Part shown: piece after piece, positions 8,633 to 26,831 of the stretch
Layout of the letters: every line of letters starts with the position of its first letter
Position numbering within the stretch: the stretch's first letter is position 1
From: Sulfuriflexus mobilis
GTDB lineage: Bacteria > Pseudomonadota > Gammaproteobacteria > AKS1
Length of the DNA: 64,000 nucleotides
NCBI RefSeq assembly: GCF_003967195.1
Contig: NZ_AP018725.1
Location: 2,108,001-2,172,000 of the forward strand
Reading direction: 5' to 3'
The notes under the pieces: model-generated
What the model was told of the DNA's origin: nothing
What the model saw: the letters and a program-made list of their open reading frames with translations, nothing else
Database searches by the model: none
Program-made: the position numbers and the translations under genes

Positions 8633-10069
8633 CTAACTACTCCTCAGCCGCGGGTCGAAGGCATCGCGCACCGCATCGGCAAACAGATTCGCCGCCAGCA
8701 CCAGTATGAACATAAATACAAAGGCTGCCAGCAGGGACCACCAGACGATGGGCTCGCGGGCCATCTCCAGTCGGGCACTGTTAATCATATTGCCCCAACT
8801 GTTCATGGACGGGTCGACCCCAACACCGACATAGGCCAGCACGGCCTCGGCCAGCACCAGGCCGCTGAAATCAAGCACGATCACGATCAGTACGATGTGC
8901 ATAACATTCGGTAAAAGGTGACGTGTAATGATCTTGGCACTGCGTACACCGAAGGCCTGCGAGGCCTGGATGTAATCGGCTTCGCGTAGTTTCAAGGCCT
9001 CGCCACGCAACAGGCGACATAACGAGGTCCAGCTGGTGATGCCGAGGATCAAACAGAGGAATAACAGTCGCGCATCGGCACGTTGCAGCACTGTTGCAAA
9101 TTGTTGCGGGTTGTTTTCGATATAGACCTGCATGACCAGGATCGCGGCAGCAATGAGTAACACACTCGGTATAGAACTCAGGGTTGTGTATAAATACTGG
9201 ATAACATCATCGACCCAGCCACGAAAATAACCGGCCATGATGCCCAGCAAGACGGCAAACGGCAGCATTACCAGTGTGGTCAATGTACCGATTACAAGTC
9301 CGGTGCGAATACTCTTCAGCGAAAGGTAGAGGACATCCTGCCCAACCTTATCTGTACCGAAAATGTGATAGTGTGTACCGAGCTCCATTGCGAACAACAG
9401 AAACAGCAAGATAAAAAACACTGTGGCCAACATGGAGCGCCACGGCAGTCTCGTCCGCCCCATTAACATGCCCTGGAGGGTAATGGTAAATCTTTCATTA
9501 TTACGTCGTGTCTGCCAACCCGCCAGCAGAGTAGTTATCAATAGCCCCAGCAACACTGCCTCACCGAGAGCAACCAGGCTACGTGCCTGGATATCGACGC
9601 CGCGTTGTATTTCAGGGGCATCTAGGTGTGCGCTGCCGTATTTCAGCCGCGGGAAATCACGTCGCATACTGCCATCGGCCTGCTCAATATTTTCCTTTGC
9701 ATACAATTGATAGGCAAAGGGTTCGGAATAGGTCTTCTCGGTGTGGTTCTTCAGCGGCAGCACTATCCTGTCGAACAGGCTATAGACCTCTGTTGAATAA
9801 AGCACACTGCCATCCTCACGTTGTTCCAGTGGCACCTTGAAATGTATCGAATCAAGCAGACCGATCACCACAAAGGCCATCAGTATGATCAGTGCGCTCA
9901 TGGCCAGGCGTCGGTACAAGACCTGTCGCCACGGTGCTCGCAGGTGTTCGTGGCGTCGGGCATAGACCACAAAGATACCGATCGCTGCAACCAGGATATA
10001 GATGAGCACATCGGTCCAGAGCATCGCCGGCTCAATTTGCCACCAGTTAAAATCGGCGGAAATATCCAT
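8633..10069 (-). CDS. yejE: Peptide ABC transporter permease (YejE-like)
   Basis: 478 residues, long for a BPD_transp_1 permease. The N-terminal region has membrane helices (about 18-36 and 53-70) and a periplasmic stretch. The conserved permease core follows: FGTDKVGQDVLYLSLKSIRTG, the EAA-like cytoplasmic loop around YIQASQAFGVRSAKIITRHL and the ending FADAVRDAFDPRLRSS typical of DppC/OppC/YejE proteins. It forms the inner-membrane channel with the YejB-like protein. The start lies one base after the end of the YejB-like gene, so translation is tightly coupled. Confidence 0.92.
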   Translation of the reverse strand: MDISADFNWWQIEPAMLWTDVLIYILVAAIGIFVVYARRHEHLRAPWRQVLYRRLAMSALIILMAFVVIGLLDSIHFKVPLEQREDGSVLYSTEVYSLFDRIVLPLKNHTEKTYSEPFAYQLYAKENIEQADGSMRRDFPRLKYGSAHLDAPEIQRGVDIQARSLVALGEAVLLGLLITTLLAGWQTRRNNERFTITLQGMLMGRTRLPWRSMLATVFFILLFLLFAMELGTHYHIFGTDKVGQDVLYLSLKSIRTGLVIGTLTTLVMLPFAVLLGIMAGYFRGWVDDVIQYLYTTLSSIPSVLLIAAAILVMQVYIENNPQQFATVLQRADARLLFLCLILGITSWTSLCRLLRGEALKLREADYIQASQAFGVRSAKIITRHLLPNVMHIVLIVIVLDFSGLVLAEAVLAYVGVGVDPSMNSWGNMINSARLEMAREPIVWWSLLAAFVFMFILVLAANLFADAVRDAFDPRLRSS

Positions 10070-10070
10070 A

Positions 10071-11051
10071 TCAGTTCAACCTTATCCGCGGGTCAACCAG
10101 CGTGTAGGAAATATCTGTGAGGATAAGCCCGATGATGTAGAGCACCGATCCGAGGAAGACCATGGCCTTAACGATCGAAAAGTCCTGAGCGAGAATGGCG
10201 TCAATGGTGTAACTGCCCAAACCAGGAATGCCAAAGAAGGATTCGGTTAACAGGCTGCCCATGAACAGCATCGGGATCACGACCACCACACCGGTGAGGA
10301 TCGGCACCATGGCATTCTTAAGCACGTGCCGGAACAATACCCGCAATTCGGACAGTCCTTTGGCCCGCGCCGTGCGCACATAGTCCTTACTGATTTCTTC
10401 AAGGAAGATAGTACGGTACCAGCGCGTACCACTGCCGATGCCACCTATCACACCGATGATCACAGGCAGGATCAAAAACTTGATCGCCGCCGGCCATTCA
10501 TTACTGTATCCGGATATCGGCACCAGATGCCAGAGTTTGCCCATCAGGTACTGCCCACCGATAATATAGAATAGTGTCGAAACTGACATAAAGATCACAC
10601 CCAGTACCACCCCGCTCATATCTATATAGCTACCACGGAAAAAAGCCAGCAACATGGATAGTGTGATATTCACCAGCAGACCGACGATAAACATCGGCAA
10701 GGCAATCGCCAGACTCGGCCACATGCGCTGTGCAATATCATGACCAATATCACGACCATCATCGGCGGCACCGAAATCGAATACAAACAGGCGCACGGAT
10801 TTTTCATAGAAGATGGTATTCGTCAGTGCCGCACTGCCCTGCTCCAAACTGTTATAGAGCAAGGGTTTGTCATAACCGTGTTCGACCTTCCATTTCTCAA
10901 TCGCCGCCGGGGTCACGTGTTTGACACCGAGATTGACACGCGCCATGTTGTCGGGCGTATTGACGACAAAGAATAAAACAAAGGTCAGCAGGTTGACACC
11001 TATAAGGATAGGGACCGCATAGAGGACACGCCGTACGATATAGGCAAACAT
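10071..11051 (-). CDS. yejB: Peptide ABC transporter permease (YejB-like)
   Basis: 326 residues from the ATG at 11051 (MFAYIVRRVLYAVPILIGVN), which has the N-terminal signature of DppB/YejB permeases. The longer frame to 11141 lies inside the upstream gene. The EAA loop region reads YVRTARAKGLSELRVLFRHV, and the C-terminus ends in DPRIRLN. Its start codon overlaps the stop of the solute-binding protein gene by one base (TGATG), indicating translational coupling. It pairs with the YejE-like permease. Confidence 0.92.
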   Translation of the reverse strand: MFAYIVRRVLYAVPILIGVNLLTFVLFFVVNTPDNMARVNLGVKHVTPAAIEKWKVEHGYDKPLLYNSLEQGSAALTNTIFYEKSVRLFVFDFGAADDGRDIGHDIAQRMWPSLAIALPMFIVGLLVNITLSMLLAFFRGSYIDMSGVVLGVIFMSVSTLFYIIGGQYLMGKLWHLVPISGYSNEWPAAIKFLILPVIIGVIGGIGSGTRWYRTIFLEEISKDYVRTARAKGLSELRVLFRHVLKNAMVPILTGVVVVIPMLFMGSLLTESFFGIPGLGSYTIDAILAQDFSIVKAMVFLGSVLYIIGLILTDISYTLVDPRIRLN

Positions 11052-23156: not shown

Positions 23157-24479
23157 CTAGCCGCGACCCTGGCCCTGGCTCTGCTGCATAATTTCATCAA
23201 AGTTTGTCTTGTTTTCGACCTTTTCGGCCTTCTCAAGCACCCAATCTACCACGGCTTGCTCCATCACTACAGCCTGAACCTCGGCAAGGCGGTTCTGATC
23301 ACCATAGTAATAATCAATAATTTCCTTAGGGTCTTCATAGGGTGCAGCAATCTCTTCCACGGCCTCACGCACCTTCTCATCGGAGGCCACAATACCCTGC
23401 TTGCCGATCAATTCGGACATTAGCAGGCCCAGTGATACGCGGCGTTCAGCCTGGTCACGATACAGCTCAGGATCCATTGGTTTGTCTTTCGGCATCGGCA
23501 CACCCTGCTGGGCGAGCATGTTTTCCATCTGCTGGGCCAGGCGCTGCATTTCGTCCCGGACCATGACCTGCGGCAGGTCGATCTTGTTCTTTTCAATCAG
23601 GGCATCCATAACCTGGGTCTTGGTGGCTTCACGCACCACCGACTTCAGTTCACGCTCCATGTTTTCCTTCACCTGGGTACGCAGGGCCTCAACAGTGCCT
23701 TCCTCTACACCGAGTTCCTTGACGAAGGCATCGTTGACTTCCGGCAGTACCGGCTCCATCACAGTACCTACTGTGATCTCAAACTGCACCGTCTGACCGG
23801 CCATTTCCTTATTGCCATAGTCTGCCGGGAAGGTGGCATCAATGTTACGCACGTCACCGGCCTTGGCACCCTCAACTCCCTTTTCAAAATCGCTGATAAA
23901 ACGCCCCGAACCAATCACCAGCGGGACCTTGCTGCCCGTGCCCCCTTCAAAGGCGACACCGTCTTTTGTGCCGACAAAATCGACCATCACCTGGTCACCG
24001 TCTTTGGCGGCACGTTCGACTTCCTTCCACTCCTGGCGCTGGCCACGGATACGTTCGATAGTCTTGTCGATATCTTCTTCGGTGATTTCAGCCACCGGAA
24101 CTTCAATCTTAACCCCTGTCATATCGGCCAGTTCAAACTCCGGCATGACCTCAAAGGTTACCGCGTACTTTGGACCTTTGCCCTCTTCCAGCGGCAGAAA
24201 CTCGACACTCGGCGCACCGGCCGGGCGCAGATTCTCCTTTGAGAAGGCTTCATAAAGACTCGACTGCACGGCCTCATCCAGGGCCTCCTTTTTCGCCTGT
24301 GCACCATACTGTGACTTGACGATACGTAACGGCACCTTGCCAGGACGAAAGCCGGGCATTTTTACCGTGCGGGCCAGGTTTGCCAGACGATTTTCAACGG
24401 CCTGTTCAAAACCTTCCACCGGCAGTTCAACAGTCATGCAATGCTCAAGACCGTCACGCTTTTCAACAGAAATCTGCAT
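23157..24479 (-). CDS. tig: Trigger factor
   Basis: 440 residues, usual length. The N-terminal ribosome-binding domain carries the signature [24 protein letters not shown]-type isomerase domain (about 150-245, [20 protein letters not shown]) and a C-terminal chaperone domain follow. It binds nascent chains at the ribosome exit. It is downstream of a five-tRNA cluster and upstream of clpP, the normal order in this group. Confidence 0.97.
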
Positions 24480-25057: not shown

Positions 25058-25414
25058 TGGCGCGCCCGGCAGGATTGATGCAGGCCCACGGCCTTCACCC
25101 TTCGGGCAGCGCTTCTCGCGCTGTCCAAACCGGCTTCACCGGTTTGTCGAACCTCGCCATATTATGACGCAGGTTCTCATCCCTCATGGATGATGTTTCC
25201 AGGCTAACCTGTCGTCATGCCTGGACAACCTAATATGGCGCGCCCGGCAGGATTGACTCAGGCCTCCGGCCTTCGCCCTTCAGGGCAGCGCTTCTCGCGC
25301 TGTCCAAACCGGCTCCACCGGTTTGTCGAACCTCACCATATTATGACGCAGGTTCTCATCCCTCATGGATGATGTTTCCAGGCTAACCTGACGTCATGCC
25401 TGGACAACCTAATA
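25058..25414 (-). repeat. Two tandem 178/179-bp units, each ending in the last 19 bases of tRNA-Arg
   Basis: The 19 bases at the 3' end of tRNA-Arg (AATCCTGCCGGGCGCGCCA on the minus strand, 25433-25415) recur exactly at 25254-25236 and 25076-25058. The units between them are nearly identical over their whole length. Each unit contains GAGGTTCGA, then a string of short GC hairpins (AAACCGG/CCGGTTT, CAGCGC/GCGCTG, GCCC/GGGC, GGCC/GGCC), then the 19-base tRNA end. Each also carries an inverted partial copy of the Arg T-arm (GCAGGTTC..ATCC on the plus strand, near 25169 and 25348). No protein is encoded. The units lie between tRNA-Arg and tRNA-His, inside the cluster transcript. Confidence 0.93.
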
Positions 25415-25491
25415 TGGCGCGCCCGGCAGGATTCGAACCTGCTACCCTCTGCTTAGAAGGCAGATGCTCTATCCGAATGAGCTACGGGCGC
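25415..25491 (-). tRNA. tRNA-Arg (TCT)
   Basis: 77 bases with encoded CCA. Acceptor GCGCCCG/CGGGCGC; anticodon loop CTTCTAA gives TCT. It is complete, but its last 19 bases (from the T-loop to CCA) are repeated twice downstream in tandem units. Confidence 0.96.
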
Positions 25492-25554: not shown

Positions 25555-25727
25555 TGGTCGGGGTAGAGAGATTACTCGCTGCGCTCGCCCCTTCGGGGCC
25601 GCCTGCGGCGTTCTGCGCACCTCCGGTGCTGGTCGAACTCGCCATATGACTTTCGTCGGGAGTTCAAATCTCTCTACACGGACCTCACCCACATTAGGCG
25701 TTAAACCAATTATCGGCGACCAAAATT
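25555..25727 (-). repeat. 173-bp unit ending in the last 19 bases of tRNA-Pro
   Basis: The last 19 bases of tRNA-Pro (AATCTCTCTACCCCGACCA, 25746-25728 on the minus strand) recur exactly at 25573-25555. The 154 bases between resemble the tRNA-Arg units: a shared segment GTCATATGGCGAGTTCGACC (compare GTCATAATATGGTGAGGTTCGAC), then serial short GC hairpins (CACC/GGTG, GCCGC/GCGGC, CCCC/GGGG). On the plus strand at 25656-25685 there is an inverted copy of the tRNA-Pro 3' end matching 27 of 30 bases. No protein is encoded. Confidence 0.92.
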
Positions 25728-25804
25728 TGGTCGGGGTAGAGAGATTCGAACTCCCGACATCCTGCTCCCAAAGCAGGCGCGCTACCAGACTGCGCTATAC
25801 CCCG
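25728..25804 (-). tRNA. tRNA-Pro (TGG)
   Basis: 77 bases with encoded CCA. Acceptor CGGGGTA/TACCCCG; anticodon loop TTTGGGA gives TGG. It is the first gene of the leftward tRNA cluster, with a strong promoter about 90 bases upstream. Its 3' end is duplicated downstream. Confidence 0.96.
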
Positions 25805-25976: not shown

Positions 25977-26831
25977 ATGGCCGCACAACGCATAGATGGC
26001 AAACTCGTCGCCGCCGACCTGCTCGGCAAGGTCGCAACACGCGTTCAGGCGCGCCTCGCCGCGGGCAAACGCGCCCCGGGGCTGGCCGTGATCCTGGTGG
26101 GCAGTGACCCGGCCTCGAGCGTCTATGTCGGCAGCAAACGCAAGCGCTGCGAGGAAACCGGTGTCCTGTCATACTCCCACGACCTGCCCGCAGAGACCAC
26201 GGAAACCGACTTGCTGGCCCTGATCGACCGGCTCAATGATGACCCTGCAGTCGATGGGATCCTGGTGCAATTGCCCCTGCCCGCACACATTAACGCCGAT
26301 ACCGTGATCGAGCGGATTGACCCGGCCAAGGATGTAGACGGTTTCCACCCCTACAATTTTGGACGCCTCGCCCAGCGCCGCCCGCTGCTGCGTCCCTGCA
26401 CCCCGCGTGGCGTCATGACCCTGCTTGAAAGCACGGGGCAGGAGCTGGTCGGCCTGGATGCCGTGGTGGTCGGCGCCTCCAATATTGTCGGCCGTCCCAT
26501 GGCGCTGGAACTACTCATGGCACGTTGCACGGTGACCATCTGCCACAGCAAGACCCGCGACCTGGCCGCCAAGGTGGCTGCCGCTGACCTGGTCGTAGTA
26601 GGTGTTGGTATTCCCGGCTTCGTAAAGGGGGAATGGATAAAACCCGGTGCCATCGTCATCGATGTGGGTATTAACCGCCTCGACGACGGGCGTTTGGTTG
26701 GAGATGTCGAATTTGCTTCAGCGGCCGAACGCGCCGGCTGGATTACACCGGTGCCGGGTGGCGTTGGCCCGATGACCGTCGCCACCCTGCTGGAAAATAC
26801 CGTCGACGCCGCCGACCGGGCCGACGTTTAA
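25977..26831 (+). CDS. folD: Bifunctional methylenetetrahydrofolate dehydrogenase/cyclohydrolase
   Basis: 284 residues, full length. It interconverts 5,10-methylene-, methenyl- and 10-formyl-tetrahydrofolate using NADP. Family signatures are [20 protein letters not shown] (with the catalytic lysine), [14 protein letters not shown], and the C-terminal [23 protein letters not shown] box 34 bases upstream, divergent from the tRNA promoter, is the likely -10 element. It ends four bases before the convergent end of the next gene. Confidence 0.97.

Follow-up and report, generated by a model that had tools for sequence, protein, structure and literature searches.

RtT-like units behind tRNA genes of Sulfuriflexus mobilis and its relatives: in most of them an inverted segment is complementary to the neighbouring tRNA

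Three units behind two tRNA genes

The window, that is the whole 64,000-nucleotide stretch of the Sulfuriflexus mobilis genome analysed here, encodes on its minus strand a cluster of tRNA genes flanked by Pfam-matched genes of the FolD type (25977-26831) and for trigger factor (23157-24479). Besides tRNAs for His, Lys and Leu the cluster contains an intact tRNA-Pro (TGG, 25728-25804) and an intact tRNA-Arg (TCT, 25415-25491), both recognised by ARAGORN and by the Rfam tRNA model. One unit lies 3' of tRNA-Pro and two lie in tandem 3' of tRNA-Arg. Read in the tRNA sense, the tRNA down to its CCA is followed by a spacer, an inverted segment (INV), a gap, a direct half T-arm ending in GTTCGA, a string of hairpins (E) and a copy of tRNA positions 58-76.

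The Pro unit occupies 25555-25727 on the minus strand and measures 173 nt from CCA to CCA. The original prediction described here a copy of the tRNA-Pro 3' part that runs opposite to the gene, and this copy is indeed present, with 27 of 30 positions matching, one base away from the 25656-25685 first given: INV spans 25655-25684 on the plus strand, and its core, corresponding to tRNA positions 46-62, lies at 25655-25671 and matches in 16/17. A repeat search returns the same segment and 25729-25758 as inverted arms of 30 nt that are 90% (27/30) complementary. The minus strand carries the half T-arm (CGAGTTCGA, 25633-25641), E as a GC-rich hairpin string according to predicted folds (25574-25632), and the copied tail with its CCA end (25555-25573), which also appears as direct repeat D4.

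Behind tRNA-Arg, unit 1 (25236-25414, minus strand, 179 nt) comprises an INV on the plus strand (GACGCAGGTTCTCATCC, 25345-25361, with a TC centre in the tRNA sense), and on the minus strand a half T-arm (25326-25334), E (25255-25325) and a copied tRNA-Arg tail (25236-25254). The tandem unit 2 (25058-25235, minus strand, 178 nt), which figures in direct repeats D1 and D2, has its INV at 25166-25182 on the plus strand, its half T-arm at 25147-25155, E at 25077-25146 and the tail at 25058-25076, the last three on the minus strand. In both units INV matches the reverse complement of tRNA-Arg 46-62 in 13/17 positions, and the inverted T-arm motif GCAGGTTC..ATCC, earlier placed near 25348 and 25169, starts at precisely these two positions.

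Inside each unit, on the tRNA strand, the Rfam model of RtT RNA (RF00391) gives a match below its cut-off of 45 bits: 28.9 bits in Arg unit 1 (25236-25380), 22.8 bits in the Pro unit (25555-25690) and 22.2 bits in Arg unit 2 (25058-25201). Since this gathering score is not reached we call the units RtT-like and do not assign them to RF00391. Their sequence suggests that they are related to RtT RNA (known as rttR at E. coli tyrT and as 'RtT sRNA' in PGAP annotation) but have diverged from it. They lie directly 3' of tRNA genes, end in a copy of the tRNA 3' end (CCA), and have INV, half T-arm, hairpins and a GAGTAATCC-like junction to the tail in the order seen at E. coli tyrT, the junction of Arg unit 2 being GCATC in place of GAGT. 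The tyrT record of E. coli K-12 MG1655 contains the parts in matching order, an inverted tRNA-Tyr T-arm included; RtT is annotated at proK of a DH1 E. coli K-12 strain, and the RtT units of tyrT and proK, like those of the window, carry a cognate INV. The window units differ from RtT RNA in scoring 22-29 bits, in having Pro-TGG and Arg-TCT as hosts, and in having relatives behind 23 tRNA kinds. Other Rfam matches in the region (miRNA families, Plastid-ycf2 and others) are sub-threshold and were taken as chance or tRNA-likeness.

The same genome has further RtT matches 3' of tRNA-Ser GGA (39.6 bits, the best) and behind Ser-GCT (30.3 bits), and two more units were recognised 3' of Arg-ACG by eye and with a six-unit sequence model; all of them share the anatomy of the window units. 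The Ser-GCT unit (L012, about 1440-1692) contains two similar short hairpin inserts, seen by eye around CCCTTCGGG, in E and in the copied tail.

According to passages of PMC4986893 and PMC2965389 that refer to Bosl and Kersten (1991), rtT originates from the tyrT operon, is set free as a small RNA when the tRNA is processed and may take part in the stringent response. Two Actinobacillus RtT RNAs, Arrc20 and Arrc21, lie upstream of tRNA-Asn and tRNA-Lys, are expressed on Northern blots and are treated as trans-acting sRNAs in passages of PMC4986893; as RtT family members beside tRNA genes they are comparable in position to an upstream type described below. Excerpts from other papers mention an rtT RNA with a 175-bp variable tandem repeat among the indels of Salmonella strains (PMC2658671), a tandem GA motif in RtT (PMC7657543), and a similarity of some BIME-based attenuators to rtT (PMC2965389). 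No description of an inverted, tRNA-specific T-arm in RtT was found in the literature searched, most subscription papers lying outside it.

REP/BIME palindromic elements are likewise strings of short GC-rich hairpins, whereas a link to the T-arms and tails of tRNAs sets the RtT-like units apart. The hairpin string E is more stable than its dinucleotide shuffles (mean MFE z -2.19, n=91), and the arms of its first hairpin come in 83 distinct forms among 89, as delimited by a crude H1 stem finder that left 18/89 stems with fewer than 5 pairs. Among MFE pairs the G-U share is 5.3% for E and 3.2% for the acceptor and T stems of tRNAs, a difference that does not decide whether E is kept as RNA or as DNA. 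The count in H4 stems (9/495 pairs) does not settle this question, and the closing pair of H3 (GC 80, GT 62, AC 21, AT 10, TT 1; n=174) is not decisive either.

In most units the inverted segment follows the host tRNA

Relatives are widespread. R1, a sequence model built on six units of the S. mobilis genome with Pro, Arg and Ser tRNAs as hosts, matched 89/274 sampled genomes of the class, about a third, and 30/200 genomes of a phylum sample, 19 of these in one family outside the class (f187). A DNA pattern scan gave at least 118 stretches; among the matches listed, the exceptions by title were one Muproteobacteria, two 'Proteobacteria', one Auribacterota and one Phycisphaerae MAG, and the others we take from their titles to be gammaproteobacterial genera or MAGs. 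The sample studied in detail is non-random, 100 regions having been hand-picked among the R1 matches listed. A mechanical tail rule yielded 237 distinct stretches behind 24 tRNA kinds, composed of 184 (190 detected minus duplicates and odd lengths) and 53 added later, and 215/237 are 140-220 nt long. Three of the 237 are the next tRNA gene and three contain N; 25 are without part of the E signature, among them Arg unit 2 of the window and L082/L083, the junction check being strict. The full signature (tail rule, half T-arm, H3-like hairpin and GA[AG]T junction) is found in 212/237 stretches, behind 23 tRNA kinds for 11 amino acids. By the tail rule there was no unit at 27/106 loci of the first set and 47/186 of the larger one, nor at most of 20 places fetched outside the class.

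At proK, two of four E. coli strains compared by sequence lack a full unit, one has a single unit and one has two; the strains without it show that the proK unit is dispensable there. The two without (L271, L272) retain a leftover INV that reads GGAAGAGAACC, while in the other two (L270, L273) INV reads GGATGAGAACC in the full units and in the leftover behind them; possibly the leftover of L271 and L272 decayed after E was lost.

An INV matching at 12/17 or better is present in 139/184 stretches, 168/237 in the larger set and 153/212 with the full signature. The statement that each unit carries an inverted copy of its own tRNA thus holds for the window and fails as a general rule, 59/212 full-signature stretches falling below 12/17. 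Units that sit next to another tRNA with an unmatched segment, named beforehand as the observation that would speak against a tRNA-specific copy, are mostly absent, and the exceptions belong to these same 59, such as an Arg-ACG unit of Marinobacter (L223). Short forms in which the INV core stands next to the half T-arm account for 26/69 low scorers among all 237.

That the matching has been kept tRNA-specific, as originally proposed, is borne out by several comparisons. The mean score of the cognate inverted T-arm (49-65) across 102 units is 13.4/17, against 10.8 for the T-arms of other tRNAs and 9.4 in letter-shuffled units, and the cognate arm outscores every other T-arm in 60/102. In the 139 units with INV at 12/17 or better the match profile has a sharp edge at position 46 (0.21 at 45, 0.61 at 46) and declines slowly from 62 to 69, and position 50 matches in 0.88 of cognate against 0.25 of non-cognate comparisons. 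This set and the 111 units folded below were chosen by that threshold, which inflates their match and capture rates; the fair set is an anchored one, in which INV was located by a GAA upstream of the half T-arm, blind to the tRNA-specific letters. Exactly one anchor was found in 74/184 stretches (53 had no GAA anchor, 46 had several and 11 had no half T-arm). Here 470/740 cells match, while permuting the tRNAs among units gives 317 +/- 12 (1000 permutations, maximum 358), and position 50 agrees with the own tRNA in 0.77 and with other tRNAs in 0.23. Among eight anchored Arg-ACG units the T-arms GGGCG, GGAGG and GCACG are paired with their own INV in seven; one of these, from the S. mobilis genome, which contributes two, is mismatched at 52 and matches poorly on its 3' side. 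The eighth is the Marinobacter unit.

The tRNA and the half T-arm of the unit can be told apart as partners of INV wherever they differ. At position 50 INV then sides with the tRNA in 37 of 47 cases and with the half T-arm in 4, and at position 51 the corresponding numbers are 21 and 2 of 28. It could be argued that INV only closes the fold of its own unit, on the half T-arm and the tail, and that the match to the tRNA is a by-product. Pairing is possible between INV 52-56 and the half T-arm in 85-100% of 133 units (6/139 lack a half T-arm by rule) and between INV 59-62 and the copied tail in 98-122/132, the Rfam structure of RtT contains pairs of this type, and the short forms mainly keep the self-pairing part. 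Such pairing is likely for INV 52-62. As the whole cause of the cognate match it is rejected for 46-51, where INV goes with the tRNA in preference to the half T-arm, and we therefore hold self-closure as the sole function to be very doubtful. In most units, then, INV is complementary to positions 46-62, and weakly to 69, of the tRNA beside it, and tracks this tRNA and not the half T-arm.

The centre of INV behaves differently from its arms. Positions 57-58 of the tRNA are GA in 139/139 units, and opposite them INV has TC in 77, GA in 41, TT in 15 and other letters in 6. The first three states, 133/139 in all, leave the centre able to pair with the invariant GA of the T-loop, through Watson-Crick pairs, tandem G.A pairs or A-U plus G.U respectively; that a GA centre forms tandem G.A pairs is something it could do. 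The class with a GA centre, TTCTC, is found behind 13 tRNA kinds and has cognate arms at 50-52 in 38/41 units (of a set preselected for INV at 12/17 or better), and TTCTC occurs in none of the 139 host tRNAs. As the arms follow the host and the centre does not, INV is more than a T-arm copied in its entirety; simple inverted duplication would have reproduced arms and centre together.

These observations bear on a neutral account, according to which INV arose as an inverted duplication of the T-arm and has since stayed close to it through template switches between the two during replication. As this account would have it, INV and the host T-arm form an inverted repeat, in most cases with some 60-90 nt of tail and spacer in between, and the number of tandem units varies. 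However, the half T-arm is much nearer to INV, across a gap that is AT-rich in many units and commonly 4 or 13-16 nt long, and it has not been equalised with INV at 49-51, where INV follows the farther tRNA; nor would the account predict a non-host centre behind so many tRNA kinds with cognate arms. Homogenisation by template switching is disfavoured on both grounds, and we regard the neutral origin and upkeep of INV as quite unlikely. We infer instead that selection keeps INV for pairing with the T-arm.

Predicted folds and a possible role on read-through transcripts

Equilibrium energy folds were calculated for 111 first units with INV at 12/17 or better, each joined to its tRNA in one transcript. 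INV is predicted to pair with tRNA positions 50-52 (P > 0.5) in 100/111 transcripts with their own INV, in 21/111 with the INV of a unit for another amino acid and in 0/111 with a shuffled INV, the contrast between own and exchanged being partly built in by the selection of units. Conversely, the T-stem (P > 0.5) is predicted to persist in 3/111 transcripts with their own INV, 25/111 with an exchanged and 42/111 with a shuffled INV, and in 86/111 for the tRNA alone. The 42/111 in the shuffled controls imply that many of these tRNAs are poorly folded by the model in a long transcript, and the calculation takes no account of the tRNA being made and folding ahead of the rest, of tertiary contacts or of modified bases. 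The notion that the antisense segment guides the folding of the tRNA thus meets a predicted effect of the opposite sign. Within the window, capture of the T-arm is predicted for the Pro unit and not for Arg unit 1.

The reading that we favour, and put forward tentatively, is that these are RtT-like RNA units in which base pairing to the host tRNA's T-arm is what maintains INV, and that an RNA-level switch or fail-safe would be their most likely role. The unit would consist of the hairpin domain E set into a copied host T-loop, between half T-arm and tail, with INV placed before it. In a free unit INV would pair with the half T-arm and the tail of the unit itself and thereby complete the RtT structure; if read-through leaves the tRNA attached, INV would intrude into its T-arm and disrupt the cloverleaf. 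Half T-arm and tail, the two pieces of the unit's own T-arm, may then be a decoy that draws INV away. Acting in this manner on read-through tRNA precursors, the unit could work as a switch or as a fail-safe.

Several results weigh against this model. There are short and unmatched forms, some E. coli strains have no full unit at proK, and changes in INV that preserve pairing by wobble are only weakly favoured (44/657 vs 24/555, P 0.08). An intrinsic-terminator-like hairpin stands between the CCA and INV in 48/113 first units, and over all units in 59/139 against 0-5/139 in shuffled spacers. The fidelity of INV is 0.68 in 41 units behind such a hairpin and 0.59 in 59 units without (P 0.18); the terminator does not lower it, and co-transcription of tRNA and INV is therefore not visibly required. 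The lack of a terminator effect in these sequences would still be compatible with an action confined to read-through RNA.

Other forms, movement and the reach of the family

The part E also occurs outside the downstream units. Upstream of an intact tRNA it can interrupt a further copy of that tRNA within the T-loop, as seen by eye for Ser-CGA (L163), Lys (L164), Ser-GGA (L169), Ser-GCT (L199) and Tyr (L210), and in one locus (L131) three tandem Gln tRNA copies are split in this way upstream of the intact copy. No INV was seen by eye beside these E-split copies upstream of intact tRNAs; the Ser-CGA locus has in addition a downstream unit with INV. Four stretches of 5-10 kb that lack an intact tRNA (L089, L103, L113, L126) contain partial tRNAs, read as Lys and Arg, with E in them. 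The E-split partial tRNAs of L089, L113 and L086 differ in their tRNA parts and have by eye a similar upstream stretch with TTATGCA repeats, perhaps the end of one kind of island. In L234 (pattern match at 283) the left half of a tRNA-Gln is joined through E to a tRNA-Ser tail, as if units had recombined inside E.

tRNA integrases usually leave behind a direct repeat that begins in the T-loop and covers the 3' end of the tRNA. Such a repeat flanks the insertion in the window and elsewhere, and INV, T-arm and tail might on these grounds be the core sites of tyrosine recombinases that use tRNA T-arms, the units being the scars of island integration. The partial tRNAs with E in stretches without an intact tRNA would agree with this, as would a viral contig (L151) with several tandem Ser-type units at about 10000-10800 and no tRNA found in its 13.7 kb. 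Against it, the arms change with every tRNA, so that one DNA-binding protein could hardly read them all, and E is a hairpin string with varying arms. The earlier proposal of an inverted recombinase arm site fares no better, as the arms differ by tRNA and the three prevailing states of the INV centre fit base pairing. Integration scars are accordingly a very improbable explanation.

A different kind of mobility would make INV the target-recognition strand of a mobile element that inserts into T-loops and chooses its tRNA by base pairing across 58/59. EBS-IBS pairing in group II introns works through a short stretch of RNA that is complementary to the target on either side of the place where insertion occurs. 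INV has this property too: its complement spans the point of E insertion, reaching 13 nt before and 4 to 11 nt after 58/59 (profile 46-62), although such complementarity fits the other readings as well. E stands at one constant place in the units listed, and its presence in the T-loops of whole or partial tRNA copies without visible INV counts in favour as well. Two pairs of units behind different tRNAs of one genome have closely related E parts, 0.92 identical for Ser-GCT (L124, INV 14/17) and Ser-GGA (L097, 13/17), and 0.88 identical for Ser-GGA (L083, INV 17/17) and Arg-ACG (L082, 16/17), so that the INVs are close to perfect in the second pair only. Over all comparisons, however, E is not closer within genomes: median identity is 0.62 between different tRNAs of the same genome (n=67), 0.60-0.64 between genomes and 0.91 between tandem copies. 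The few close pairs therefore point to single cases of transposition or gene conversion and not to general recent movement, and gene conversion of E alone could account for the shared E. The difference in copy number among E. coli strains, for its part, looks like tandem-repeat recombination.

No mobilising protein came to light in the two families considered, RVT_1 and Y1_Tnp. RVT_1 has no match in the S. mobilis genome and is found in 40/89 unit-bearing and 64/185 other genomes, which is not significant (P 0.11, hand tally). Y1_Tnp is commoner in unit-bearing genomes (72/89 vs 114/185, P 0.0014, a hand tally in which genome type may confound), but it is absent from 17/89 of them and hence not required; the own genome (G000) has two Y1_Tnp matches. 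The units are moreover mostly 140-220 nt long, which, unlike group II introns, leaves no space for an intron core. A targeting role of INV on the pattern of such introns is best described as unlikely. The fuller version, RNA-programmed T-loop elements whose INV guide would pick a tRNA by pairing across the insertion point and which, with retargeted arms and a kept centre, would have spread over at least 23 tRNA kinds, strikes us as distinctly doubtful.

RtT relatives extend far beyond E. coli tyrT, which is the main known case in those parts of the literature that were available, and most of them carry an antisense strand that is specific to, and follows, the tRNA next door. Whether as a control of tRNAs by RNA, one tRNA at a time, or as an insertion system targeted by base pairing, a regulatory or mobile strategy of this kind may have been overlooked.
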